64,000 nucleotides of DNA from NCBI RefSeq assembly GCF_001677435.1, contig NZ_CP016268.1, forward strand, positions 1,911,001-1,975,000, read 5' to 3'. The notes below the pieces were generated by a model. It did not search any database, had not been told where the DNA came from, and was given only the letters and a program-made list of their open reading frames with translations. The DNA is from Woeseia oceani. GTDB taxonomy: Bacteria; Pseudomonadota; Gammaproteobacteria; Steroidobacterales; Woeseiaceae. This document shows, piece after piece, positions 1,881 through 59,234 of the stretch. Positions within the stretch are counted from its first letter, which is position 1, and every line of letters starts with the position of its first letter. The position numbers and the translations under genes were made by a program.

Positions 1881-3983
1881 GTGAAATACCCGGCCACCTT
1901 GAAATGCGATCAGACAGACTTCTTGCACGGCACTCGGGTTGCAGACCCTTATCGTTGGCTGGAGGGTGATGTACGTGAACATGCCGATGTTGCGAAATGG
2001 GTGCAGGAACAGAATGAATTAAGCGATTCATACTTACAGGGTATCGCTGAACGCGAGACCATCGCCAACCGGCTGCGGGCGCTGTGGAATTACCCGCGTT
2101 ATGGTTTGCCGGTGAAAAAGGGCGGGCGGTACTTCTTCGAATACAACACGGGTCTGCTGAATCAAAATCAGATCCATGTGCAGGACGATCTGCACTCGGA
2201 TCCGGTATTGCTTCTGGATCCGAACACGCTTTCTGAGGATGGCACGATTGCCGTCGCGTCGTGGTATCCCAGTCCGGACGGGCGGTATCTGGCCGTCTTG
2301 CTGCAAGACGGCGGTACAGACTGGCGGATGGCGCGAATTCTGGATACGCGCTGCGGAGAATTTCTCGACGATACACTGCATTGGCTGAAATTCACGGGTC
2401 TTGCCTGGCATCCGGCTGGCCGTGGCTTCTACTACAGCCGCTACCCGGCGCCGGGTAGCAGTGAAACATTTCAGTCACTCAATACGAATCATGCCCTCTA
2501 TTTTCACGCAGTTGGTGAGCCACAGGAACAGGATCGGTGTATCTATTCGCGTCCGGATCATCCGGACTGGGGCTATGCCGCTGAGGTCAGCGACGATGAG
2601 CGGTATCTGCTCATTACAGTCTGGAAAGGTACCGACAGCCGTTTTCAGCTGGTGTTGCAAGACCTAAAGGACCCGTCCTCACAACCGACAATGCTGGTCG
2701 AAGGATTCGAACACGATTTTTCGCTGGCTGGCAGCCGTGGGTCCGAGCTGTTCTTTCGCACGACCTTCAAAGCGCCGCGTGGCAGGTTGATTGCCATAGA
2801 CCCGAACCGCCCGGACAGAAGCGAGTGGCGGGAAGTTATCGCAGAGACGAGCAATGTACTGACAGCGGTCAGCTGTGTGGCCGACAAGTTGGTCGTGCAG
2901 TACATGCAGGACGCCAGATCGCTGGTGAGTATTCACGAGCTGAACGGCGGCTTTGTGAGCAACATCGAGTTGCCCGGTATTGGCAGTGCGGTCGGGTTTG
3001 CAGGTGATGCGGAGGCCACAGAGACCTTCTACAGTTACTCAAGTTTCGCAACTCCGGCGACCGTCTTTCGCTTCGATGTCGGCAGCCGGCGTTCATCAGT
3101 GTTCAAACGCCCCAGCGTGGATTTCGACAGTGACGACTACGTTGTACAGCAACGGTTCGTGACTTCGGCAGACGGTACGCAAGTACCGATGTTCGTGGCG
3201 CACCGTAAGGACACCGAACTTGATGGCGCAAACCCAACCGTGCTCTATGGCTACGGCGGATTCAATATTGCGGTAACGCCCGAGTTCTCGATCGCCCGCC
3301 TGGTCTGGATGGAGATGGGCGGGGTCTGGGCTGTTGCCAATATTCGCGGCGGTGGCGAGTACGGCGAGGACTGGCACAAGGCCGGCACCGGGCTGCAGAA
3401 GCAGAATGTCTTTGATGATTTTATTGCAGCGGCGGAAGCGCTCATCGACCTGAAGTACACGAGCCCCGACAAGCTTGCGGTATTCGGTGGCAGCAATGGC
3501 GGGTTGCTGGTTGGCGCAGTGACTAATCAACGGCCCGAGCTGTTTGCCGCGGCCATGCCTGCCGTCGGGGTTATGGACATGCTGCGATTCCACCACTTTA
3601 CGGCCGGGCGTTTCTGGGTCGATGACTATGGTTCTCCGGACGATCCGGAAATGTTTCCGGTATTGCTCCGGTATTCGCCGTATCACAACCTGCGGCCGGG
3701 CACTGACTACCCCGCGGTACTGATAACGACGGCCGATACGGACGATCGGGTAGTGCCGGCACACAGTTTCAAATACGCCGCGGCGCTGCAGGCGGCACAG
3801 GCGGGTGACAAGCCGATCCTGATACGTGTTGAGACGCGGGCCGGCCATGGTGCCGGCACACCCACCGACAAGGTGATCGCAGAATATGCTGATCGTTGGG
3901 GATTCTTGCTGCGGGTGCTGGACTTCCGATTGCCGGAACAGTTTGTAACCGCCGATGGCGACAGCGCAACGGCCGGGCTGTAG
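1881..3983 (+). CDS. Prolyl oligopeptidase family serine peptidase (S9A)
   Basis: A 700-residue S9A peptidase cleaving short proline-containing peptides. The N-terminal half has the beta-propeller character and the C-terminal half is an alpha/beta hydrolase. Counting from the GTG at 1881, the nucleophile is Ser538 in GGSNGG, the acid is Asp621 in TADTDDRV and the base is His656 in RAGHGAG. The spacing is as in known prolyl oligopeptidases. I prefer the GTG because the protein then opens with a KYPAT sequence like other family members. An ATG at 1809 in frame would add 24 residues with no homology feel and no ribosome binding site. There is no signal peptide, so it is probably cytoplasmic. It is one of many peptidases in this window. 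Confidence 0.9.
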   Translation: MKYPATLKCDQTDFLHGTRVADPYRWLEGDVREHADVAKWVQEQNELSDSYLQGIAERETIANRLRALWNYPRYGLPVKKGGRYFFEYNTGLLNQNQIHVQDDLHSDPVLLLDPNTLSEDGTIAVASWYPSPDGRYLAVLLQDGGTDWRMARILDTRCGEFLDDTLHWLKFTGLAWHPAGRGFYYSRYPAPGSSETFQSLNTNHALYFHAVGEPQEQDRCIYSRPDHPDWGYAAEVSDDERYLLITVWKGTDSRFQLVLQDLKDPSSQPTMLVEGFEHDFSLAGSRGSELFFRTTFKAPRGRLIAIDPNRPDRSEWREVIAETSNVLTAVSCVADKLVVQYMQDARSLVSIHELNGGFVSNIELPGIGSAVGFAGDAEATETFYSYSSFATPATVFRFDVGSRRSSVFKRPSVDFDSDDYVVQQRFVTSADGTQVPMFVAHRKDTELDGANPTVLYGYGGFNIAVTPEFSIARLVWMEMGGVWAVANIRGGGEYGEDWHKAGTGLQKQNVFDDFIAAAEALIDLKYTSPDKLAVFGGSNGGLLVGAVTNQRPELFAAAMPAVGVMDMLRFHHFTAGRFWVDDYGSPDDPEMFPVLLRYSPYHNLRPGTDYPAVLITTADTDDRVVPAHSFKYAAALQAAQAGDKPILIRVETRAGHGAGTPTDKVIAEYADRWGFLLRVLDFRLPEQFVTADGDSATAGL

Positions 3984-4208
3984 CTGGGCGTTTCCCGCTG
4001 GTGGCCTGCACCCACGGCGGGCAGTTCGATTGCCATCACGACGAGCCGATTGGTGATGGCCTCCAAGTCCAGCAAGCAAAAAGCGTCTGATTAGCCTGGC
4101 GGACCCGTTGATTGTGTATAGCCATCAGCCGGTATGCAGCGTCTAATGCGGTGCTATTGCCGGGAGCACAGTTTCCCAGCCTGAAACCCGACCAACCTTG
4201 AGCATTTG

Positions 4209-6412: not shown

Positions 6413-8101
6413 TCATTCGGCGGCGGCACTTGTCATCCGCTCGCGACCGAACTTCTCGCCGAAGAAGTCGCCGGGCAGCCAGGCAGGTTCGGCCGGGTCG
6501 TTGGCCACGGCAAGCCCAATGCGGACGTTGGCCCTGGCGAAACGCAAGACAGAGGGCCAGTCGAACGGCCGGCTCATGTCGTCACTCGGTTGGTGGTAGT
6601 GCGTAGCCAGATGATTGCGGAAGGCTTTTTCTCCGTCGATGTCTTTATCCGTCGACGTAAAGCCGGGTATCAGGTAGACCGACGGCACGCCCTGGCGGAC
6701 GAACGAGTATTGATCACTGCGTATGAAGATGACTTCTTCAGGGATCGGGTCCGGGGTCAGCGCGAAGTTCTCAGCGGCAATGGCTGTGTCGATGGTTGCG
6801 CCCAGCGTCGTGTGTTCTGCGCCGAACGCAATAATGTCGGCAACCGGGTACAGAAACAGCGGCATGTCCAGGTTCACGTTGGCGGTCAGTGCGGAATGCG
6901 GCACGGTCGGGTAGTGCGCAAAGTAGTCGGAGCCCAGCAGTCCGCGTTCCTCGCCAGTCAGGGCGATAAACATGATGGAACGCTTTGGCGGCTGCTCCAT
7001 GGCCGCGAATGCTCGTGCGGCCTCGATCATCAGCGATACACCCATCGCATTGTCGTAGGCGCCATTGTAGATGTCGTCGCCATCGACGGCCGCACCAGTG
7101 CCAACGTGGTCGAGGTGGGCGCTGTACACCACGTACTGGTTTTTGAGCTCAGGGTCGCTGCCGGGCAAGAGGCCGATCACGTTCGGGCTGGTGGTGTGTT
7201 CATGATTGGTCTTGCGGGACAGAGACACTTCCACGCCCAGTGCCGTTGATCGCGATTGCCCTTGTTCGGCGGCATCCAGCGCTTGTTCGAAACTGATAGG
7301 CGTGCTGTCAAAGAGGGCGGTCGCCGCATCTACGCTGAGCGTGGCGGCCCCCAGTAGCTCGGGATTGAAGTCGGCCGCTTCACCCGACAGGTTGACCCAG
7401 GCCATGCCCGGGCGTCGGCCGGCATTCATTTTCAGCCGTTCCCACGGGTACTGCTTCTGGCTTAGACGCGTCTGTAAACTGATCGAGCCGATAGCGCCGC
7501 GCCTGACCATTTCCCGGGCTTTGGTGCGGCTGGATGAGTAGTAAGCCCGTTCGTTGTGGCCGAATGTAGCGGGCGCACCGCTAAACACCGCAATGATCTT
7601 GCCCTCGACATCGACACCATCGTAATCGGAATAGCCGATTTCGGGCGCATGAATGCCGTAGCCTACGTACACCACTTCGCCACGTACAAAAGTCTCATCC
7701 CGTACTTTGTCACCGGCCATCAGAAAGTCTTCTTTCCATTTGAGGCCGGAGTCGCCACTGTCCTGATGCAAGGTAACCGAGGCGCTTTCCACGTCGATGC
7801 GGTTTGTCAGCAGCGGGACTTCCTGAAACCAGGTATTGTCTTCGCCACCTGGCGTAAGCCCCAGCGTTTCGAACTCCTGGGCCACGTAGTCGGCTGCGGT
7901 GAGGTATTCGTCCGTTCCGGTCATTCGTCCCCGCAAGGCGTCGGCAGCGAGAAACTCGACGTGCGCCTGCAGCGCGTCTGTCGTGATAGCGTTGAGTCCT
8001 GCGTCGGCGTTGGCGGGTGCCGCGGCTTGTTCGTTGTCTGGTGTACAGGCGCTGATCAGGCAGAAGGCTAGCAGCGACGACCATCGTATTAGCGTGCTCA
8101 T
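6413..8101 (-). CDS. M28 family zinc aminopeptidase, lipoprotein
   Basis: A 562-residue exported metallopeptidase. The N-terminus is a lipoprotein signal ending in LISAC with the lipidated Cys at residue 19, so I start at the ATG at 8101 rather than at any upstream in-frame codon. The C-terminal half is the M28 domain with all zinc ligands: His329 in SAHLDH, Asp350 in GAYDN, Glu384/Glu385 in GEERG, Asp412 in NLDM and His503 in HYHQPSDD. A PA (protease-associated) insert appears to lie around residues 140-240. It should release N-terminal amino acids from peptides at the cell surface or periplasm. It is divergent from the cupin operon. Confidence 0.92.
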   Translation of the reverse strand: MSTLIRWSSLLAFCLISACTPDNEQAAAPANADAGLNAITTDALQAHVEFLAADALRGRMTGTDEYLTAADYVAQEFETLGLTPGGEDNTWFQEVPLLTNRIDVESASVTLHQDSGDSGLKWKEDFLMAGDKVRDETFVRGEVVYVGYGIHAPEIGYSDYDGVDVEGKIIAVFSGAPATFGHNERAYYSSSRTKAREMVRRGAIGSISLQTRLSQKQYPWERLKMNAGRRPGMAWVNLSGEAADFNPELLGAATLSVDAATALFDSTPISFEQALDAAEQGQSRSTALGVEVSLSRKTNHEHTTSPNVIGLLPGSDPELKNQYVVYSAHLDHVGTGAAVDGDDIYNGAYDNAMGVSLMIEAARAFAAMEQPPKRSIMFIALTGEERGLLGSDYFAHYPTVPHSALTANVNLDMPLFLYPVADIIAFGAEHTTLGATIDTAIAAENFALTPDPIPEEVIFIRSDQYSFVRQGVPSVYLIPGFTSTDKDIDGEKAFRNHLATHYHQPSDDMSRPFDWPSVLRFARANVRIGLAVANDPAEPAWLPGDFFGEKFGRERMTSAAAE

Positions 8102-44739: not shown

Positions 44740-46017
44740 CTGAAAATCGCCGATACCTCTGGGCAGGACGTTGCCATAGAACGTGGCCGTAGCCTGCGAA
44801 CACCGCTGCTTGGCGGTGCTGTTTTATTTGCGCTGCTGGCGCTTGCCTGGATAGCCGTACCGGTTGTTGAGCGCTGGGCCAATGCCACGGTAACCGTGCC
44901 GGCGGATCGATTGCGAATTGCACAAGTGGACCGGGGAACATTGGTGCGCGATGTGTCAGTGCAGGGCCGGGTGGTCGCCGCTGTCCGGCCGACCTTGTAC
45001 GCGCCCGCCGCCGGCACAATCACGCTCGCGGTCAATGCGGGCGTTGCCGTCGAAAAAGGCCAGATTCTGGCACGAATCGACAGCCCTGAACTGACCAGCG
45101 AGCTCGATCAAGCTCGCTCCACGCTTGAACAACAAACGGTTGAACTCGAACGTCAACGTATCGAATCCCGGCAGCAGCGCCTCGAAAAACAAAAGGAAGC
45201 CGATCTGGCTAACGTTCGACTCGTAGCCGCAAACCGTGAGAAGCGGCGAGCGGACGCGGCCAATGCGGTGGGTGTCATAGCCGTCCTGGACTTTGAGAAA
45301 GCACAGGATGACCTGCGTAACGCTGAACTGGCGCATCAGCATGCCGTGGCTGACGCCAATCTGTTTGCCGAACGAATCGCTTTCGAACTGCGGGCGGCAG
45401 AACTCGCTCTGGCCCGACAAAAATTGCGGGTCGATGAGTTGCAACGGCAGGTAGACGGACTGGTCATTCAATCACCCGTTAGTGGTGTCGTGGGCGATTT
45501 GCTGGTCGAACAGAAAGCAGCAGTGGCTCGGGATACGCCGGTAATGGCTGTTGTTGACCTGTCGCAGTTCGAAGTCGAAGCCCTGGTACCGGAAAGCTAC
45601 GCGGATGATCTTGCGCCAGGTATCAGTGCAGAAATTGTGGCGGGCAATTCTCGTTATTCGGCAACCGTCGTCGCCGTGTCACCCGAGATTATTGGCAATC
45701 AGGTTAGCAGTCGACTGCGTTTCAGCGACGGGATGCCACCCAATATTCGGCAAAACCAGCAGCTAACAACCCGCATTTTGCTTCAGGAACTGGATGGCGT
45801 GCTGATGTTGGCGCGTGGCCAGTTCCTGGACAGCGGCGCCGGGCGTATTGCCTACGTACTTGATGGCAATGGTTTGGCTGAGCGCCGTTCCATTGAACTG
45901 GGTGCGCGCAGCCTCGGCGCTGTGCAGGTCGTTAGCGGGCTGTCCGAAGGCGACCGCGTCATTATTTCCAGTATCGATCAATTCAGGGGCGCCGAGATCG
46001 TCCAGATTACCGACTGA
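44740..46017 (+). CDS. Periplasmic adaptor (HlyD/RND-type) of MacAB-like export system
   Basis: A 425-residue membrane-fusion protein. A helix near residues 27-45 anchors it. The biotinyl-lipoyl-like halves (GTITLAVNAGVAVEKGQILARIDSP and VIQSPVSGVVGDLLVEQ) flank a long coiled coil (about residues 120-220), followed by a beta-barrel region. The frame has no ATG, GTG or TTG between its last stop (44707) and GTG 44896, yet the anchor and N-terminus lie before 44896. CTG at 44740 stands behind AGAGGGA at a normal distance and gives MKIADTSG, so I take CTG as start. It is first in an operon with an ABC ATPase and two permeases. Confidence 0.8.
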   Translation: MKIADTSGQDVAIERGRSLRTPLLGGAVLFALLALAWIAVPVVERWANATVTVPADRLRIAQVDRGTLVRDVSVQGRVVAAVRPTLYAPAAGTITLAVNAGVAVEKGQILARIDSPELTSELDQARSTLEQQTVELERQRIESRQQRLEKQKEADLANVRLVAANREKRRADAANAVGVIAVLDFEKAQDDLRNAELAHQHAVADANLFAERIAFELRAAELALARQKLRVDELQRQVDGLVIQSPVSGVVGDLLVEQKAAVARDTPVMAVVDLSQFEVEALVPESYADDLAPGISAEIVAGNSRYSATVVAVSPEIIGNQVSSRLRFSDGMPPNIRQNQQLTTRILLQELDGVLMLARGQFLDSGAGRIAYVLDGNGLAERRSIELGARSLGAVQVVSGLSEGDRVIISSIDQFRGAEIVQITD

Positions 46018-46041
46018 GCCAGCACGTACAGGAGTAGCGAA

Positions 46042-46743
46042 ATGCTGAGCATGAAAAACCTATCCAGAATTTACCGCACCGACACCGTGGAAACGCACGC
46101 GCTCAGGGACTTCTCGCTTGAAGTAGGCGAAGGGGAGTTCGTCTCGGTTACCGGCCCGTCCGGTTCCGGTAAGTCCACGTTCCTCAATATCGCCGGATTG
46201 CTGGAGGAATACACGGACGGTTCTTATGAACTCGACGGCCGCAATGTAGCCACGCTTAACGACCGGGAGCGGTCACGGCTCAGGAACGAGAAGATCGGTT
46301 TTATTTTTCAAAGTTTCAACCTGATTCCGGAGCTGGATGTCTTTGACAACGTGGATGTTCCGCTGCGCTACCGTGGTTTCACTGCGTCGGAGCGTGCGCG
46401 TCGAATCGAAAAAGTGCTCGATACGGTCGGTCTGGCATCGCGGCGCAAGCACTTGCCGTCGCAATTGTCCGGCGGGCAACAGCAACGCGTCGCCATCGCC
46501 CGGGCGCTTGCCGGTGAGCCGCGCTTTCTGCTTGCCGACGAACCCACCGGCAATCTGGATTCCAGGATGGCAGACAGTGTGATGGATCTGCTGTGTGACA
46601 TTCACAGCAAAGGGACAACCATCATCATGGTGACCCACGAGCCGACGCTGGCGACCCGCGCGGAACGCAATATTTTTGTGCGTGACGGTCAGATTTGCGT
46701 TGGTGAGTTGCCCCTTGAACTGGCCGCCGCAGCAAGCGCCTGA
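46042..46743 (+). CDS. ABC transporter ATP-binding protein (MacB/LolD type)
   Basis: A 233-residue ABC ATPase. Walker A is GPSGSGKST at residues 38-46, the signature LSGGQQQR and Walker B LLADEPTGNLDS follow, with HEPTLATRAE containing the H-loop. Such MacB/LolD-type ATPases drive FtsX-like permeases that act mechanically across the envelope. The ATG is preceded by AGGAG. It lies 24 bases after the adaptor and 9 before the first permease, so all four genes belong to one operon. Confidence 0.93.
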   Translation: MLSMKNLSRIYRTDTVETHALRDFSLEVGEGEFVSVTGPSGSGKSTFLNIAGLLEEYTDGSYELDGRNVATLNDRERSRLRNEKIGFIFQSFNLIPELDVFDNVDVPLRYRGFTASERARRIEKVLDTVGLASRRKHLPSQLSGGQQQRVAIARALAGEPRFLLADEPTGNLDSRMADSVMDLLCDIHSKGTTIIMVTHEPTLATRAERNIFVRDGQICVGELPLELAAAASA

Positions 46744-46752
46744 GGTATCGCA

Positions 46753-48072
46753 ATGTTTGCCTATTATCTGAAGCTTGGCGTACTGAGCATACGCAAGAAT
46801 CCAATTCTGAGCGGGTTGATGGTAGCGGCCATCGCTGTGGGCATCGGGGCTTGCATGAGCATGGTGACCATCTACTACATCATGAGCGGCAATCCGATTC
46901 CGCAGAAATCGTCGCAACTGTTCTACGTCCAGCTTGATAGCTGGGGACCGGATGAGCCGGCCAACGAACCGAACGAGCCGCCCGATCAGGTTACGTACCT
47001 GGACGCGACAGCACTGCTTGCAGCAGCTAAAGCACGGCGTCAGGTTATCAGTTACTCGTCGAGTCGAATTGTCGAGCCGACCGACGACGACGCACTGCCT
47101 TTCAGTATCCCGTCACGCAGTACCAGCCGCGAATTTTTTGCCATGTTCGATGTGCCTTTCCTGTACGGCAGCGGTTGGGACCAGGGTGCAGATGATGGTC
47201 GCGAGTTTGTTGTTGTGCTGTCCCGCGAACTGAACGAAAAGCTGTTCGGCGGTGAAGACTCAACAGGCCGCCAGGTGCGCCTGAACGGCGAGTTGTACCG
47301 GGTTACCGGTGTTATCGATGACTGGTCACCGGTACCGAAGTTCTATGACGTGACCGTTGGTGCGTTTAACGATGCGGAATCACTGTTCCTGCCATTCAGC
47401 ACCAGCGTCGCTAATGAGATGTACAACAATGGCAACACCAATTGCTGGAAACCGATTCCCGACGGCGGCTGGCCAGCCTTCCTCAATTCGGAATGCGCCT
47501 GGATGCAGATGTGGGTTGAACTCCATGGTTCGGAGGAGTACGCCGAATATACGGATTTTCTGAACGCCTACGTGGAATCCCAAAAGGCGGTAGGTCGCTT
47601 CCCGCGACCGCTTAACAATCGGCTGCGCAGCGTAACTGAACACTTGCAGTATCAAGAGGTGGTGGATGAAAGCGTCCGCATACTGTTGGTGTTGGCGGTG
47701 CTGTTTCTGCTTGTTTGCCTGCTTAACACTATTGGACTGTTGTTGGCGAAGGTGCTGCGACGGTCGGGCGATATAGGCCTGCGTCGCGCCCTTGGCGCTT
47801 CACGGCGCACGGTGTTTACCCAGTACATCGTGGAAGCCAGTCTTATCGGTGTTAGCGGCGGTGTGCTGGGGGTGGGACTGACCTGGCTTGGTTTGCAGGG
47901 CATACGCAATCTGTATTCAGGTTTGGACTTCATTGGGAAGCTGGTGGTTATGGACTGGGTCATGGTCCTGGCCGCCGTTACTCTCGCAGTATTGTCATCA
48001 CTGGCGGCGGCGTTTTACCCGACGTGGAAAGCGTGCGCGATTCAGCCCGCCAGTCAGTTAAAAACGCTGTGA
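46753..48072 (+). CDS. FtsX-like ABC permease 1
   Basis: A 439-residue permease of the MacB/FtsX type. Helix 1 is at about residues 18-40, a large periplasmic domain extends to about 310, and helices 2-4 are at the C-terminus (LLVLAVLFLLVCLLNTIG, the GDIGLRRALGASRRTVF coupling motif). It joins permease 2 in a heterodimer driven by the ATPase. Its periplasmic domain is distinct from that of permease 2, which fits an asymmetrical pair. Confidence 0.9.
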   Translation: MFAYYLKLGVLSIRKNPILSGLMVAAIAVGIGACMSMVTIYYIMSGNPIPQKSSQLFYVQLDSWGPDEPANEPNEPPDQVTYLDATALLAAAKARRQVISYSSSRIVEPTDDDALPFSIPSRSTSREFFAMFDVPFLYGSGWDQGADDGREFVVVLSRELNEKLFGGEDSTGRQVRLNGELYRVTGVIDDWSPVPKFYDVTVGAFNDAESLFLPFSTSVANEMYNNGNTNCWKPIPDGGWPAFLNSECAWMQMWVELHGSEEYAEYTDFLNAYVESQKAVGRFPRPLNNRLRSVTEHLQYQEVVDESVRILLVLAVLFLLVCLLNTIGLLLAKVLRRSGDIGLRRALGASRRTVFTQYIVEASLIGVSGGVLGVGLTWLGLQGIRNLYSGLDFIGKLVVMDWVMVLAAVTLAVLSSLAAAFYPTWKACAIQPASQLKTL

Positions 48073-48106
48073 TCAGGCAGCCCGGATCAGCGTTGGAGAA
48101 TAAGTC

Positions 48107-49318
48107 ATGAACATAGGACCGATCTGGCGCGCATTGATGCGCAGCAAGTCAAGCTACATTCTGATCGCTTTGCAGATTGCGGTAACGATGGCGATCATCG
48201 TCAATGCGATTGCGATCATTCAGGAGCGTTCACGGCTGATGTCACGGCCCTCCGGCGTCGATGAAGATAATATCTTCTACATTTCGAGCCATGCTTTCGG
48301 TAAGGACGTCAATTATCGGTCATTAATTGAGAATGACCTTCGCGATCTGCGTGCGTTGCCGGGCGTGGTCAATGCGATCAGCACCAACTCGGTACCGCTG
48401 CGCGGTGGCGGCTGGTCCATGGCTTTGTCCCGAGAGCCCGGCCTTTCCAGCGACGGGAGTAGTGTTGCGCTCTATTTTACCGACCAGAACGGTATAGAAA
48501 CACTGGGCGTGAATCTGGTTGAAGGCCGCAATTTCCGTGAGGACGAGATAGTCTGGAGTGATCCGCAAAGCAACCGGCTGCCCGCGCAGGGAATCATCAC
48601 GCGTGCAATGGCTGACACGTTGTTCCCGGATGAGAGGGGCAGCGTCGTTGGCAAAACGGTGTACATCAACGAAAACGACCCGGTGCAGATCATTGGGATT
48701 GTCGAGCGCTTGCAGGCGCCTTGGAACGGTTGGGATGGAGTGGAGCGCTCAATCCTGATGCCAATGATTCGGCAGGACCCTTACGTACGGTACGTCATTC
48801 GCGTAGAGCCGGGCTTGCTCGATTCGATGATGCCCAGAGTCGAGGAAATGCTGGCCACAAGCAACCGGAGTCGAATCGTGGAAAGAATGCGCACGATGAA
48901 CGAGACCCGCCGCCGCAGTTATCTCGGTGATTCAGCGTTGGTGACCCTGCTGTCGTTTACCGCGCTCCTGCTGACGGGAATAACCGGCCTCGGAATCGTG
49001 GGTCTTGCGAGTTTCAATGTGAGCCGGCGGACCCGGCAGATCGGAACCCGCCGTGCGCTGGGCGCAACCCGTGGCTCTATCCTGGCTTATTTCATGCTGG
49101 AAAATTTTCTGGTCAGTTCCGTTGGGATCGCGGCGGGTGCAGTGTTAAGCGTGGCGCTGAATGTCTGGATGGTGCAAGCGTTCGAACTTACCCGCATTTC
49201 CTGGTACCTGATACCGGCGGCCATGCTGATGCTCTGGCTCGTCGGCCAGATAGCGGCGGCGGGGCCGGCGCGCCGGGCCAGCCTGGTACCGCCTGCCGTA
49301 GCCACCCGGGCGGTTTGA
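48107..49318 (+). CDS. FtsX-like ABC permease 2
   Basis: A 403-residue second FtsX-type permease: helix 1 near residues 15-35, a periplasmic domain with the MacB-PCD pattern, and C-terminal helices with GLASFNVSRRTRQIGTRRALGATRGSILAYF. The two permeases are only moderately alike, so a heterodimer is expected. The operon resembles MacAB-type exporters but with ATPase and two permeases as separate proteins; export of a peptide, lipid or toxin is possible. Confidence 0.9.
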   Translation: MNIGPIWRALMRSKSSYILIALQIAVTMAIIVNAIAIIQERSRLMSRPSGVDEDNIFYISSHAFGKDVNYRSLIENDLRDLRALPGVVNAISTNSVPLRGGGWSMALSREPGLSSDGSSVALYFTDQNGIETLGVNLVEGRNFREDEIVWSDPQSNRLPAQGIITRAMADTLFPDERGSVVGKTVYINENDPVQIIGIVERLQAPWNGWDGVERSILMPMIRQDPYVRYVIRVEPGLLDSMMPRVEEMLATSNRSRIVERMRTMNETRRRSYLGDSALVTLLSFTALLLTGITGLGIVGLASFNVSRRTRQIGTRRALGATRGSILAYFMLENFLVSSVGIAAGAVLSVALNVWMVQAFELTRISWYLIPAAMLMLWLVGQIAAAGPARRASLVPPAVATRAV

Positions 49319-54671: not shown

Positions 54672-55862
54672 ATGTCTACTCGAAACCTTACAGTTCTTTT
54701 CTTTTGCCAGCTGATTTCGGCCACAGGTTCAATCGTACTGGTCACCCTCGGCGGTATTATTGGCTCGTCACTGAGCAGTAATCCGGCGCTTGCAACCTTG
54801 CCGGTTTCGATGATGGTCGTCAGTGTTGCCGCGACTACGATACCCGCGAGTCTGCTCATGCGGCGCATCGGGCGTCGCGCCGGTTTCGCCATGGCGTCGG
54901 TGTCCGCGGGCGCTTCCGTGCTTATGGCGGCGCATGCATTGCAGACGGTCAGTTTCGGCTGGTTCATCGTTTCGGCATCAGTGTTCGGAATCAACATGGC
55001 TTTTTCACAGCAATACCGCTACGCCGCCGCGGAAAGCGTCGCCCCACGTTATGCCGGGCGGGCAATTTCGTTGGTGTTGCTCGGTGCGATTGGTGGCGCA
55101 TTTGTAGGGCCGGAGCTGGTGTCACGTGGTGCGGCCTGGGGTGATACTCCCTACGTAGGTACGTTGCTTAGCCTCGCGGTGCTGTACGTTGTGCAGGCGT
55201 TGCTGTTCAGTTTGTTGCAGCCGCTCAGGGGAGAGAGTGCAGGCAGCGTGGCTGGTGCAGGACGGCCGCTTGCGGCGATAGTCCGGCAGCCTTTGTTCAT
55301 CGCTTCCGTGCTTTGTGGCACGGCGGCGTACGGCGTGATGACGCTTATCATGACGGCGACCCCACTCAGTATGCACATCAACGACGGGTATGCGCTCGAT
55401 GAAACCGCGCGCGTCATTCGGAGTCACGTTATAGCGATGTACTTGCCGTCGCTGGTGTCCGGCTTTCTGCTGGAACGCTTTGGCACGATTCGCCTGATGG
55501 CTGTCGGCGCTGTTGCCTTGCTGGGGGCATGCCTGGTGGGGCTTCAGGGCCATAGCATGCTGCACTATTGGTGGGCTTTGGTACTGCTGGGCGTCGGTTG
55601 GAATTTTCTCTACGTCGGTGGCACAACCATGCTGACACTTACGTACAGTCTGGACGAACGCTTCCGCGCGCAGGCAGTGAATGAGTTCAGTGTCTTTGGT
55701 ACTTCAGCCACGGCTTCCTTGCTGGCGGGCACGGTGATCCATCTTTATGGCTGGCACACGTTGGTGTTGCTGCCACTGCCATTGCTGGCAGTGACCTTGA
55801 TCAGTTTGTATTTTGTCCGGGGCAACAGCCTGTTGCGCAAGGTGGCTCCGCAAGCAGCCTAG
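54672..55862 (+). CDS. Major facilitator superfamily transporter
   Basis: A 396-residue MFS protein with twelve hydrophobic segments and the cytoplasmic RRIGRRAG loop between helices 2 and 3. The opening NLTVLFFCQLISATGSIVLVTLGG and repeated small residues suit a drug or metabolite exporter of the type annotated YcaD/Bcr-like, but I cannot name the substrate. Start ATG lacks an obvious ribosome binding site. It is divergent from the PHP gene. Confidence 0.88.
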   Translation: MSTRNLTVLFFCQLISATGSIVLVTLGGIIGSSLSSNPALATLPVSMMVVSVAATTIPASLLMRRIGRRAGFAMASVSAGASVLMAAHALQTVSFGWFIVSASVFGINMAFSQQYRYAAAESVAPRYAGRAISLVLLGAIGGAFVGPELVSRGAAWGDTPYVGTLLSLAVLYVVQALLFSLLQPLRGESAGSVAGAGRPLAAIVRQPLFIASVLCGTAAYGVMTLIMTATPLSMHINDGYALDETARVIRSHVIAMYLPSLVSGFLLERFGTIRLMAVGAVALLGACLVGLQGHSMLHYWWALVLLGVGWNFLYVGGTTMLTLTYSLDERFRAQAVNEFSVFGTSATASLLAGTVIHLYGWHTLVLLPLPLLAVTLISLYFVRGNSLLRKVAPQAA

Positions 55863-55965
55863 TCCGGCGACTATCGGGCCGGCACCGGTCGGGTTCAGGG
55901 CAGACGGGAAACGTTCCAGGCGCAAGAACCCCAGGCCGAGCCCCGTTACCCGCTGATGCGCGCGC

Positions 55966-56628
55966 TCAGAAGAAGTTGAAGTGGAGTCCGAGCGAAACGA
56001 CCGGCCATGCCTTGAAGTCTTCGCCCTCGCTTTGCAGTTCCTGGCGTTCGCTTTCAAGCCGGTCCTGAAACGTAGGGTCGTCAGCAAGTGTGCCGGTTGA
56101 GGTCAGGGTAACTGTGGGTTCACCTTGCCAGAGGACGCCAAGATCAAGATTCAGGCCGATGCGATTGGCCAGTTCGAAATCGAATCCAAGTCCGAGGTAG
56201 GGCGATACGCTGTCAAACGAGCTGGTGCTGCGCAGCTGGCCGACTTCGTCGCCGCTGAACGTCTGTCCTCCGATAATAAAGCTGTCCGCTTCACGGCTGG
56301 CCATGACCAGCTGATTGTTGTTGCTGAAGGCGCCGACTGACAAACGCATTGGACTCAGCGGGAAGCGGAGATTTGCGGTTGCATAGACAGTATCAAGTTC
56401 GAGTGTTGCGTCATATGCAATGCCGGCTTGCGCGCCATCGTCGTCGAAATCAAACCGATTCAATCCTGCGCGTAAGTCCATCCATGGAATGGGCTGCCAA
56501 CGTGCTTCCACGCCCAGTCCGAGCGTTCCCGCTTTGACGCCGAACCAGAGGTTGTCGTTGGCGGAAGCGGAGGAACCCGCGAAAAGCAGGGCTGCTGCTG
56601 CGAGAACGGTTGCGTAGCGAGGTTTCAT
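55966..56628 (-). CDS. Outer-membrane beta-barrel protein
   Basis: A 220-residue protein with a signal peptide (cleavage near ASA-ND, residue 23). The rest alternates polar and hydrophobic residues in strand-long stretches, and the C-terminus ends in aromatic Phe (SLGLHFNFF), the recognition signal for BAM assembly. I do not recognise it closely; the general form is OmpW/autotransporter-barrel-like. The gene stands alone, converging on the MFS gene. Confidence 0.82.
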   Translation of the reverse strand: MKPRYATVLAAAALLFAGSSASANDNLWFGVKAGTLGLGVEARWQPIPWMDLRAGLNRFDFDDDGAQAGIAYDATLELDTVYATANLRFPLSPMRLSVGAFSNNNQLVMASREADSFIIGGQTFSGDEVGQLRSTSSFDSVSPYLGLGFDFELANRIGLNLDLGVLWQGEPTVTLTSTGTLADDPTFQDRLESERQELQSEGEDFKAWPVVSLGLHFNFF

Positions 56629-56880
56629 ATCAGTATCCGGTGTGTTGAGTTGGCGACGAATAAGTCAGAGGAAAAGCCTAAACGTGGCTCACCTTGGGAA
56701 CTGTGAGCCGGTTCACAGGCAAGGCAGGAAAACCCGGGAAGTTGCGGGTTTCCCGGTATTTCCGTGATTTTCGTCGAGAAACAGCGGCAGACCGTGGTGA
56801 ATGCGCGGAACTATGCTGACTGGGCGCAGGACGCGCATTTACAGTCATTCTGACTATTCATCGATAAGGAGATTGATGCT

Positions 56881-57072
56881 ATGCGTACTTTAACTACAGC
56901 AGAGGTTTGCACCGTTGCAGGTGGCACAGGAACGTGCACGCCAGAGAGCTCGGGTAATGATCTCATGGGCGTAACCAATTCCGGCGGGGTTGGTCGTGAT
57001 CTGATCAATATCTACGAGGGAGCGGTCGCTGCGGTCTCTCATGTGATTGAGAGAGTTGCGAACGCGTTCTAG
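56881..57072 (+). CDS. Bacteriocin-like double-glycine leader peptide
   Basis: A 63-residue precursor peptide. MRTLTTAEVCTVAGG at residues 1-15 has the form of the short double-glycine leaders of class II bacteriocins (MRELTxxEhxxVSGG). The remaining 48 residues are Gly-rich with a helical amphipathic end (GAVAAVSHVIERVANAF) and hold Cys19. AAGGAG lies ten bases before the ATG. The next gene, convergent with an 11-base gap, encodes a CPBP protease, a family that includes bacteriocin immunity proteins. No peptidase-containing ABC exporter is in this window. The call is structural, not proven. Confidence 0.6.
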   Translation: MRTLTTAEVCTVAGGTGTCTPESSGNDLMGVTNSGGVGRDLINIYEGAVAAVSHVIERVANAF

Positions 57073-57083
57073 AGGCTCGACGT

Positions 57084-57944
57084 TTAGTCGTCGGGTGCAT
57101 GCCCGGCGACTTTCGAACGGACCAGCAGGATGCTGGCCAGTAATGCCAGGATTCCAATGGAAAGGGCTGCGATTCCGGTCAATAAAGTTGCGGGCGTTTG
57201 CGTTGTAGGTTGCCAAACATAGTGCATACAGAGCCAATCAAGAGCGATCAGGCTATTGAACGTCGCGTGCACAATAAGGGCCCCCCAAAGGCTACCTGTG
57301 TTCAGAACATAAACTGCAGCGAAGAGTCCGAAGACGAAAGCGAAAGGGATGGATTGCCATACATGGAGCAAAGCAAAAAGCGTGGCAGTCGCGACGATGG
57401 CAACCCAGCGTCCGTGCGGCGAAAGCCAGTGCAGTAGCCAGCCGCGAAAAATTGCTTCTTCGATCAAGGGCGTGAGCAGTGCAAGTACGAGGAAATGCAG
57501 CGCAAGTGTTGACGTTCCGGGGCAACTAAACCAAATGTGCGCTGTTTCATTAAGGTGTTCTACCGCGGCTTTCGGCAGGCTGGCAGTGGCAGCGACTAAC
57601 ATGCCGCTCCAGTAGGTGACCCGAAGCGCTATTCCCAGCAAAATGCTTGTCCCAATGATTCGTAAGCTGAGATCTTTGGGGCGCAATTTTTGAAGAATAA
57701 CTTGCCCATGGTCACGCAGAACTGGGGCGAGTACGAATAACAAGATAGGGAGCACAATCAGGTAGCTGAGGTCTTTTGAATTCGAAATGCCATTAGATTC
57801 AAACTGACCTTGCAGCCACGATCGCAAGCAGAGCGCGCATACCTCCGCAAGAAGCACCAACGAAATTAATGAGCCCGTTCGATTGTTTGCCAATGGCGAT
57901 TCGGGTGGCATCAAGTAACTCGTATTCCTGACACAGCCTCTCAT
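57084..57944 (-). CDS. CPBP family intramembrane metalloprotease (Abi type)
   Basis: A CPBP-type membrane protease of about 286 residues. The EExxxR motif is EEAIFR (residues 162-167 from the ATG at 57944), and HVW and VHATFN supply the downstream metal ligands. The family includes eukaryotic CAAX prenyl proteases and bacterial immunity proteins. Several starts are possible (TTG 57971, ATG 57944, ATG 57911) with no ribosome binding site to choose between them. The gene is visibly AT-richer than its neighbours, a mark of transfer. It is tail to tail with the peptide gene. Confidence 0.85.
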   Translation of the reverse strand: MRGCVRNTSYLMPPESPLANNRTGSLISLVLLAEVCALCLRSWLQGQFESNGISNSKDLSYLIVLPILLFVLAPVLRDHGQVILQKLRPKDLSLRIIGTSILLGIALRVTYWSGMLVAATASLPKAAVEHLNETAHIWFSCPGTSTLALHFLVLALLTPLIEEAIFRGWLLHWLSPHGRWVAIVATATLFALLHVWQSIPFAFVFGLFAAVYVLNTGSLWGALIVHATFNSLIALDWLCMHYVWQPTTQTPATLLTGIAALSIGILALLASILLVRSKVAGHAPDD

Positions 57945-58046
57945 TTTTTTGGAAAGGCTTTGCAGCCGCAATCGGTGAAAATTGCTTAAAAGGACAGTAA
58001 TAGATATCGCGGTCTCTTCAGATCGGAGTTACCGAACGGCAGACGT

Positions 58047-59234
58047 CTAGCTGGACCGGGGGGTGTGGCTTTGCCGCGCCAATTTGATCGAATAAGGCGG
58101 GTGCATATTCACTTTGCGTAGATCTCCCTGCACGTGCGGGAGTGCCAGCAGGCGCGGGTTCATGATCCGAAACCAAAGCCACGGCACATAGGCCAGCAGG
58201 TAGGCACCGAAATAACCGGTCGGCAAGGTGGGCAGGTCGGGGTAGTGTCGCAGTGACTGGTAGCGGCGGAGCGGGTGAGTATGGTGGTCCGAGTGTCGTT
58301 CCAGGTGAAACAGCGACAGGTTGCTCAGAAGGTAGTTGCTGTTCCAGGAGTGATGCGGCTGGCAACGTTCCAGGCGACCACTGGTGTCGCGGCTGCGTAG
58401 CAGTCCGTAGTGTTCTATGTAATTGGCGCTGGTCAGTTGCCAATACGCAAACGCATTGTGAATGAGCAGGAACGGCAATAGCGACAGGCCGAAGTACATC
58501 ACGATGGAGCCCTGTAGCAGGGCCGTCAGCAGGAAGGACTGCAGAATCTGATTGGACCAATGCCAGACCGGCCGGTTTCTCAATGCCAACCGCTCCCGTT
58601 CAATGGCCCACGCCCGCCGCATCGCGCCGGGAATCTCTCTCATTGCAAAGCGGTAAATGTTCTCGCCCATGCGTGAACTGGCGCAGTCCTCCGGTGTGGC
58701 CACGGCGATGTGATGCCCGCGATTGTGATCGATCGTGAAGTGTCCATAGGCAGGCAAAGCCAGTGCGAGACGTGACAGGCCGCGTTCCAGGCGGCTGCGC
58801 TTGTGGCCCAGTTCATGCCCTGTATTTATGGCAAGACCCGCCGTCATCCCCGCAACCACCGCGAGCGCGAAATAACCGAATGCCGAAAGTGCGGCGTTGG
58901 CTGCCCACCACGCGGTCCCGAACAGGCTGGCGACGTGCATCGCGACGGCGCCGTAGGTCAGGTACTTGTAGTAATGATCGCGTTCAAGGGCCATGACGAC
59001 GGCTTCGGGCGGGTTGTTCTGGTCTTCACCGATGATCGCATCAAGGACGCTTAATCCTGCGAATGTGATCGCAAGTGGCAGAAGCAGCCAGTATTCGGTG
59101 CCGGTCAGCGCATGCATGCCTATGCCAAGCAACGGTTGCAGCGGGTAGAGGACTGACAGCGCCCAGAGCCAGCGTTTGCCGTCGCGGTAGTGCACCACGG
59201 TGCCGTCGGCGGCGGTTGCCGTGTAGGTAGTCAC
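58047..59234 (-). CDS. alkB: Alkane 1-monooxygenase AlkB
   Basis: A 395-residue membrane di-iron hydroxylase. The three histidine boxes and the marker motif are HELGHK (140-145), HNRGHH (170-175), NYIEHYG (271-277) and LERHSDHH (311-318). Six transmembrane helices are expected. It hydroxylates the end carbon of medium-chain alkanes using electrons from rubredoxin. The start is GTG at 59234, preceded by GGAG nine bases upstream, and gives the usual length. No rubredoxin or regulator gene is adjacent, so electrons must come from elsewhere in the genome. Confidence 0.93.
   Translation of the reverse strand: MTTYTATAADGTVVHYRDGKRWLWALSVLYPLQPLLGIGMHALTGTEYWLLLPLAITFAGLSVLDAIIGEDQNNPPEAVVMALERDHYYKYLTYGAVAMHVASLFGTAWWAANAALSAFGYFALAVVAGMTAGLAINTGHELGHKRSRLERGLSRLALALPAYGHFTIDHNRGHHIAVATPEDCASSRMGENIYRFAMREIPGAMRRAWAIERERLALRNRPVWHWSNQILQSFLLTALLQGSIVMYFGLSLLPFLLIHNAFAYWQLTSANYIEHYGLLRSRDTSGRLERCQPHHSWNSNYLLSNLSLFHLERHSDHHTHPLRRYQSLRHYPDLPTLPTGYFGAYLLAYVPWLWFRIMNPRLLALPHVQGDLRKVNMHPPYSIKLARQSHTPRSS

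Follow-up and report, generated by a model that had tools for sequence, protein, structure and literature searches.

Many Woeseiaceae pair the gene of a small, probably exported peptide with a CPBP membrane protease gene, most likely as a self-protected weapon against competitors

Genes and sequence features of the locus

The window, the whole stretch of 64,000 nucleotides analysed here, belongs to the Woeseia oceani chromosome (a single contig of 4.06 Mb) and contained a gene for a 63-residue precursor peptide and, tail to tail with it at a distance of 11 bases, a gene for a CPBP (Rce1-like) membrane protein of 295 aa (Table 1). This layout had been recognised in a sequence-only reading of the same DNA, which took the two genes for a possible bacteriocin and its immunity protein, and the ORF coordinates agreed with it. 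The end given earlier for the protease gene, position 57944, is an in-frame ATG, but the reading frame is open from the TTG at 57971.

Table 1. Coordinates of the genes, motifs and signals at the peptide-CPBP locus, numbered from the first base of the window
Feature	Position	Strand	Basis or remark
Inverted repeat GCGC-AGGAC-GCGC upstream of the peptide gene	56824..56836	+	sequence pattern GCGCAGGANGCGC
Shine-Dalgarno AAGGAG	56866..56871	+	sequence; GGAG invariant in 32 aligned leaders
Precursor peptide gene	56881..57072	+	ATG, 63 aa plus stop; profile matches in 51/107 family genomes
Double-glycine leader MRTLTTAEVCTVAGG, residues 1-15	56881..56925	+	column counts, 33 Woeseiaceae peptides
Predicted mature peptide, 48 aa, one Cys	56926..57069	+	net charge -3; C-terminal amphipathic helix
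CPBP (Rce1-like) glutamic intramembrane protease gene	57084..57971	-	start uncertain: TTG 57971 or ATG 57944
Motif 1 EExxxR (E171, E172, R176)	57444..57461	-	all three invariant in the 35-row alignment A3
Motif 2 FxxxH (F199, H203)	57363..57377	-	both invariant in A3
Motif 3 HxxxN (H235, N239)	57255..57269	-	H235 invariant, N239 at least 90% in A3
Cys150, just before the motif 1 helix	57522..57524	-	at least 90% in A3
Cys248, just after the motif 3 helix	57228..57230	-	at least 90% in A3

The window peptide had no match in Pfam or NCBIfam. The double-glycine leader proposed for it was shared by its homologues, since 33/33 aligned Woeseiaceae peptides carried a leader ending in GG or GA, the ending looked for in class II microcins (residue 15 was G in 17 and A in 16). 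R2, L4, E8 and G14 were each present in all 33 peptides and V12 in 32. Leaders of the C39 type have hydrophobic residues at -4, -7 and -12 and a glutamate at -8. Counted from the predicted cut, the window leader has L at -12, E at -8, V at -7 and -4 and GG at -2/-1, a spacing that, judged from the residues, matches the C39/double-glycine pattern.

The predicted mature peptides were acidic, their net charge ranging from -10 to 0 in the aligned rows with a median of -5, and had a median core length of 48 aa with a range of 34-62 among 42 peptides. Exactly one Cys was found in 42/42 aligned mature peptides, so that an internal disulfide is impossible in those peptides; a second, diverged copy in one genome (G066), outside the 42 rows, had two cysteines. 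The window peptide had been described as glycine-rich in its core with an amphipathic end. Glycine was frequent only mid-peptide, while the amphipathic character of the final 25 residues was upheld by a helical moment of 0.53 against a shuffled mean of 0.20, a value reached by 0.1% of 5000 shuffles, and the structure model predicted a single long helix at residues 34-62.

The strongest feature of the peptide was the conserved C-terminal helix YExxVxxxSHxIERVA. Beyond the leader, C19, G30, Y45, E46, V49, S53, H54, E57, R58, V59 and A60 were invariant in the 33 aligned Woeseiaceae peptides, and H54 was replaced by Y in two further family peptides (L046, L158) outside the alignments. When both Woeseiaceae and the second clade described below were considered (42 rows), C19, Y45, V49 and S53 were invariant and E46, H54, I56, E57, R58, V59 and A60 were conserved at 90% or above. 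Profile A1 was built without one of 16 peptides, which was truncated. A4 and A6 exclude L121 (its peptide is identical to that of L120), L123 and L125 (both truncated) and the family peptides known only from genome searches, and A4 further lacks, from the second clade, the peptides of L189 and L191 as well as the one encoded in L190's first cassette; two A4 rows, L182 and L185, have no initiator Met owing to the coordinates used.

The earlier CPBP label was confirmed by a match to the Pfam Rce1-like family (PF02517, E 3.3e-19, 69.4 bits, cut-off 22.4) and by a structure model (mean pLDDT 88) that resembled SpdC (Z 12.8) and Rce1 (Z 11.3) most closely and any further chain at Z 7.0 or less. Foldseek likewise placed the SpdC and Rce1 families at the top for this model, but only at E 0.014-0.025. 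Taken together, Pfam, motifs and modelled fold place the protein in the CPBP/Rce1-like family, with protease activity predicted. Eight matches to named NCBIfam CPBP subfamilies (myxosortase-type MrtA, MrtJ and MrtS, MroQ and others) were all far under their cut-offs, the MroQ model giving 19 bits against a cut-off of 270. Cys150 and Cys248 were present in 23/23 rows of a four-gene comparison and absent from one second-clade CPBP (L126); the positive-inside rule, applied by eye, would place both on the periplasmic side. Alignment A3 does not contain L094 and L101, for which no full CPBP ORF was extracted although tblastn shows CPBP there, and A5 omits these two and L098 (masked stretch).

As the earlier reading had noted, the CPBP gene was AT-richer than its surroundings, with 51.8% GC against 58.0% for the whole window. 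Among four neighbouring genes it also varied most, with a median identity of 37% against 57% for the OMP, 59% for the peptide and 69% for the desaturase-family gene, while the C-terminal part of the peptide reached 72%. This comparison used the 23 of 36 loci in which all four genes were complete, L121 being dropped as a near-duplicate.

The strict inverted repeat GCGCAGGANGCGC occurred 23 times in 937 kb of sequence from 68 sources that overlap in part, each time just upstream of the peptide gene, while a looser inverted-repeat form occurs elsewhere too, including exporter loci. The form GCGC-AGGAN-GCGC began 38-57 nt before the peptide start, and the strict form was present in 20/32 aligned leaders. 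Covariation within the repeat was weak, with two-sided changes in two stem pairs (4 and 2 rows) and mixed controls, and RNAalifold predicted no structure for the peptide 5' leaders. CsrA-type regulators bind small hairpins with GGA in the loop. From its sequence, the repeat may serve as an operator or form a small hairpin of this kind. A search of 55800-58200 for RNA families gave one match, at E 0.83 and far under the gathering score. A separate hairpin at 57081-57119 spanned the intergenic gap and the 3' end of the CPBP gene; the fold of 57060-57125 had -25.1 kcal/mol (z -1.8, 9/200 shuffles as good), and a terminator scan listed nothing at 57081-57119.

Pairing and distribution of the two genes in Woeseiaceae

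In a first survey, peptide homologues were found in 16/60 genomes including that of the window, all within 37 genomes of the same family. Across 107 Woeseiaceae genomes, profile A1 detected the peptide in 51 and profile A5 detected the CPBP in 50, every one of which was a peptide genome; at E up to 1e-20, none of the 56 peptide-less genomes had the CPBP. The linkage that the earlier reading had asked of relatives was found, as the two genes were convergent and adjacent in 49/49 family genomes having both on one contig, so that a membrane protein gene occupied the place of a microcin immunity gene beside the peptide in each. The remaining two peptide genomes were interrupted by contig ends, with peptide and CPBP at two contig ends in G084 and nothing more than part of the peptide at the edge of a contig in G061. 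Of 36 loci examined, 35 were convergent and one (L126, of the second clade described below) co-directional.

The order of the flanking neighbourhood was conserved across the family, which makes this a syntenic chromosomal site, and adjacency alone therefore proves little. A stronger test of the pairing came from empty sites, of which 14 were fetched from peptide-less family genomes. In 7/7 sites where both flanks (the OMP and the desaturase-family gene) were visible, the peptide and the CPBP were both missing; five of these had only 226-476 bp between the flanks, and two (L075, L080) had other genes there. The other seven fetched sites had no OMP match (L081-L086) or ended before the OMP (L078). 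That the two genes are neighbours merely by family-wide synteny, with no joint function, would suit the conserved order of the whole neighbourhood and the gene distances, which carried no pair-specific coevolution: in a mirror-tree test on 23 loci, with partial correlations taken given the desaturase-family gene, the peptide-CPBP value was 0.49 against 0.57 for the OMP-CPBP control, so no pair-specific coevolution was shown. Against it stand the loss of both genes while the flanks stay, the 0/56 count and the second clade, where both families again adjoin each other, in a different orientation and beside an exporter, and we regard this explanation as barely tenable. The peptide-CPBP pair is genuine and not a chance arrangement.

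Neither the peptide nor the CPBP of the window or of a further locus (L162) was matched in plasmids, and viral contigs gave no confirmed peptide relative. Extra leader-only matches in G011 and G032 were the same peptide split by contig ends. In L153 (G066, 2416-3993), two peptide copies flanked one CPBP, the second copy having a diverged core. A rubredoxin-like ORF (CPECGY...CPDC, recognised by eye) adjoined the desaturase-family gene in four pair-less loci (L074, L075, L077, L083), and no such ORF was noticed between the CPBP and the desaturase-family gene in the window.

Exporter genes and the second clade

A class II microcin system includes a C39 peptidase-ABC exporter and an HlyD-type adaptor, and both were found in the window genome. 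The single C39 match there was a 717-aa C39 and ABC transporter protein (3,520,714-3,522,867) preceded by an HlyD-type gene, at a distance of 1.55 Mb from the pair and thus not near the peptide gene as in such systems. A strong C39 match (E < 1e-15) was present in 48/51 peptide genomes and 12/56 others (Fisher p 4e-15, shared ancestry ignored), and among the 91 genomes holding the desaturase-family gene the counts were 44/47 and 5/44 (p 1e-16, ancestry again ignored). The three peptide genomes lacking a strong match were G061, G084 and G091. Seven of the 12 peptide-less genomes with a strong match had no flanking desaturase-family gene in the assembly, so that the pair site may simply be missing from them. 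An HlyD-type gene lay beside the exporter in 15/16 fetched exporter loci, three of which came from peptide-less genomes. We infer that this exporter carries the peptide. One genome with an empty pair site (G003) encoded a different GG-leader peptide, roughly 2 kb away from the exporter.

The second clade was represented first by L126, from a MAG assigned to Burkholderiales by title, where one strand encoded a peptide with a core of the same kind, a CPBP (PF02517, 1.3e-20), an HlyD-type adaptor and a C39 exporter, the last interrupted by the end of the contig. Among 200 relatives of this genome (G494), itself included, 15 gave a match, and 11 of these had a recognisable core such as YENLVDFTSHVIERV, with departures in L182, L189, L190 and L191. 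The CPBP followed the peptide on the same strand in 11/11, the HlyD-type gene was present in 11/11 and the C39 exporter in 9/11, contig ends intervening in the other two; the order peptide, CPBP, HlyD, C39 exporter was thus seen in 9/11 loci, and in this clade the exporter genes do lie near the peptide gene. L190 carried two peptide-CPBP cassettes followed by one HlyD-exporter pair, and because the cassette is doubled and the HlyD-exporter pair is not, the CPBP goes with the peptide rather than with the exporter. Eight second-clade peptides belonged to no NCBIfam family (one match at E 0.2), and against Pfam L126 gave no match and the other seven none or only E 0.11-0.29.

The matches in G500, G542, G552 and G564 were not counted, the core motif being missing. 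At the G500 locus (L194), three peptides had GG leaders that were nearly identical but cores that differed. A CPBP-like match preceded one of them by about 0.7-1 kb, and short HlyD-like matches recurred on the opposite strand. Wider searches used samples drawn evenly from larger groups. Profile A2 gave two true matches (G000, G010) and three marginal ones (E about 0.009, in the leader half) in 369 genomes of the class; of the latter, no GG ORF was seen in G161, and those in G390 and G141 were other GG-leader peptides near ABC exporter genes. Profile A4 gave G000 only in 398 genomes of the phylum, plus two marginal matches without a fitting small ORF.

The sequence-only reading had suggested, as a possible exporter, the FtsX-type operon at 44.7-49.3 kb. 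This operon (44896-49318) does lie in the same window as the peptide and resembles a MacAB exporter, with genes for an HlyD-type adaptor, an ABC ATPase and two MacB/FtsX permeases. It had no C39 match at E up to 1e-8, whereas a GG leader calls for a C39 peptidase, and it is the C39 exporter encoded in trans that tracks the peptide across genomes and sits in the second-clade operon. The window operon is probably not the peptide's exporter, and we give export by this route very little credence.

Comparison with known systems and probable function

The gene order of the second clade is identical to that reported for the microcin S operon of E. coli G3/10, which consists of mcsS, mcsI (CAAX family), mcsA (HlyD) and mcsB (peptidase ABC), and in which cloned mcsI is described as protecting an indicator strain, that is, as immunity (PMC3316575). 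The shared parts are a GG-leader peptide, an adjacent CAAX-family gene, an HlyD adaptor and a peptidase-ABC exporter (PMC3316575); this likeness is one of gene order and described parts. The same source gives microcin S as plasmid-borne, with a 120-aa precursor and cysteines thought to form a disulfide (PMC3316575), whereas here the precursor has 63 aa and one core Cys, the site is chromosomal and the exporter is in trans in Woeseiaceae. McsI has 216 aa and is reported there without predicted transmembrane helices (PMC3316575), in contrast to the 295-aa CPBP with its helical-membrane model. A CAAX protease is also annotated in a bacteriocin cluster of Aliivibrio wodanis (PMC4462113), and with these two precedents, as far as the sources describe them, the earlier view that the combination appears uncommon in Gammaproteobacteria needs amending. 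The earlier bacteriocin and immunity reading fits the experimentally tested microcin S operon and is partly supported, killing and immunity being putative here.

Class IIa microcins such as MccV (cvaC/cvi/cvaAB) are described with a GG/GA leader, a C39 exporter, a membrane fusion protein, an adjacent immunity gene and mostly neutral or anionic peptides (PMC10233263), all of which find a counterpart here, with the CPBP as the putative immunity gene. Their cores of 60-90 aa mostly have very low mutual identity and their exporter genes are close by, according to the same account (PMC10233263), in contrast to the conserved cores of 34-62 aa found here and an exporter 1.55 Mb off in the window genome. 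The pair is not filed as a class II microcin, because the core length (median 48 aa, range 34-62) does not fit the 60-90 aa of ten known members and the single cysteine leaves no possible internal disulfide of the class IIa kind; antibacterial activity and CPBP immunity, as read from sequence, are putative. The CPBP membrane protease beside a GG-leader peptide also recalls the Abi/CPBP immunity proteins of Gram-positive class II bacteriocins, a group reported to be linked with self-immunity (cited in PMC9298176), and differs from them in phylum, in its strongly conserved core peptide and in the two conserved CPBP loop cysteines.

We consider it probable, at better than even odds, that the pair is the cassette of a class II microcin-like bacteriocin system with CPBP immunity and an exporter encoded elsewhere. 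The reading is preferred because the order peptide, CPBP, HlyD, C39 is that of microcin S, and the conserved catalytic motifs of the CPBP, the leader, the pairing, the co-occurring exporter and the high variability of the CPBP are in its favour. The leader, the homology, the pairing, the joint presence and absence of the two genes, the exporter co-occurrence and the complete second-clade operon were observed, and the steps that follow are proposed. The GG leader of the 63-aa precursor would be recognised by the exporter, whose C39 domain would cut after residue 15, and this peptidase-ABC exporter, together with the HlyD-type adaptor also encoded at 3.52 Mb and a TolC-like channel, would release an anionic peptide of 48 aa with one Cys and a C-terminal amphipathic helix. 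The exported peptide would act on the envelope of competitors, and the inner-membrane CPBP would make the producer resistant to its own peptide, either through binding it or through cleaving it. Since the catalytic motifs are intact, the system would offer a clean test of how a CPBP acts, by cleavage or by binding. Several findings point the other way: the mature peptide is strongly conserved, unlike microcin cores, no orphan CPBP was found (0/56, a coarse test with one genome per species) whereas a bacteriocin system might leave orphan immunity genes, the site is syntenic and chromosomal with no plasmid match, each aligned core has one Cys, the mirror-tree gave no pair-specific signal, three peptide genomes had no strong C39, and McsI is reported to lack predicted transmembrane helices, unlike the CPBP model.

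In a rather less likely reading, to which we would give roughly one chance in four, the peptide is an exported signalling or kin-recognition peptide and the CPBP a dedicated processing or sensing protease instead of an immunity protein. It is kept alive by the absence of orphan CPBP genes and by the core, whose conservation across two clades extends to polar residues of the helix, as would be expected if it bound a defined partner; one syntenic site is also kept in about half of the family. CPBP proteases tied to peptide systems are on record in SilX (S. anginosus) and MroQ (S. aureus), which the source assigns in or near signal-peptide processing and not to immunity, proposing a role of SilX with SilCR and suggesting one of MroQ in the agr system (PMC9298176). 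In that source a CAAX protease is tied to peptide signalling with no sign of an immunity role, and no sensitivity is given as resulting from SilX deletion (PMC9298176). Against signalling, we noticed no gene for a kinase, a response regulator or a receptor next to the pair, the flanking genes of relatives having been compared by clustering and those of the four-gene operons by matches to CPBP, HlyD or PCAT references. The tandem peptide-CPBP cassettes on one exporter in L190 fit immunity at least as well.

A more specific proposal, which we hold to be improbable, makes the single-Cys peptide a family-wide contact or kin signal and the CPBP its cognate receptor-protease. The peptide cysteine would engage the CPBP loop cysteines Cys150 and Cys248, and the helix motif YExxVxxxSHxIERVA would dock into the CPBP active site; the second-clade CPBP of L126 has neither loop cysteine. 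We know of no peptide sensing of this receptor-protease type in Gram-negative bacteria.

Woeseiaceae (JTB255) rank with the most abundant bacteria in marine sediments, and a conserved peptide with its partner and exporter in about half of the family would provide a handle on competition or communication in sediment. Searches of the open-licence literature found no paper tying Woeseiaceae to bacteriocins, no occurrence of the peptide core motif in two spellings and no prior description of the peptide-CPBP system of this family. On the microcin-like bacteriocin reading, the Woeseiaceae pair would differ from microcin S-type systems in its short conserved one-Cys core, its fixed site and its exporter in trans, and such a two-gene layout would escape searches that require the peptide beside the exporter.

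Other GG-leader peptides were seen near C39 exporters. Near the exporter of G003, a different GG-leader peptide with a glycine-rich hydrophobic core was observed (L065, 12957-13202, minus strand). In L162, from the class of the window, a GG peptide with a different core, a CPBP-like protein of 231 aa (a weak tblastn match at E 0.002, with motifs by eye), a C39 exporter and an HlyD-like gene lay on one strand (6743-7748, minus), a run that may represent a further family with the same architecture.
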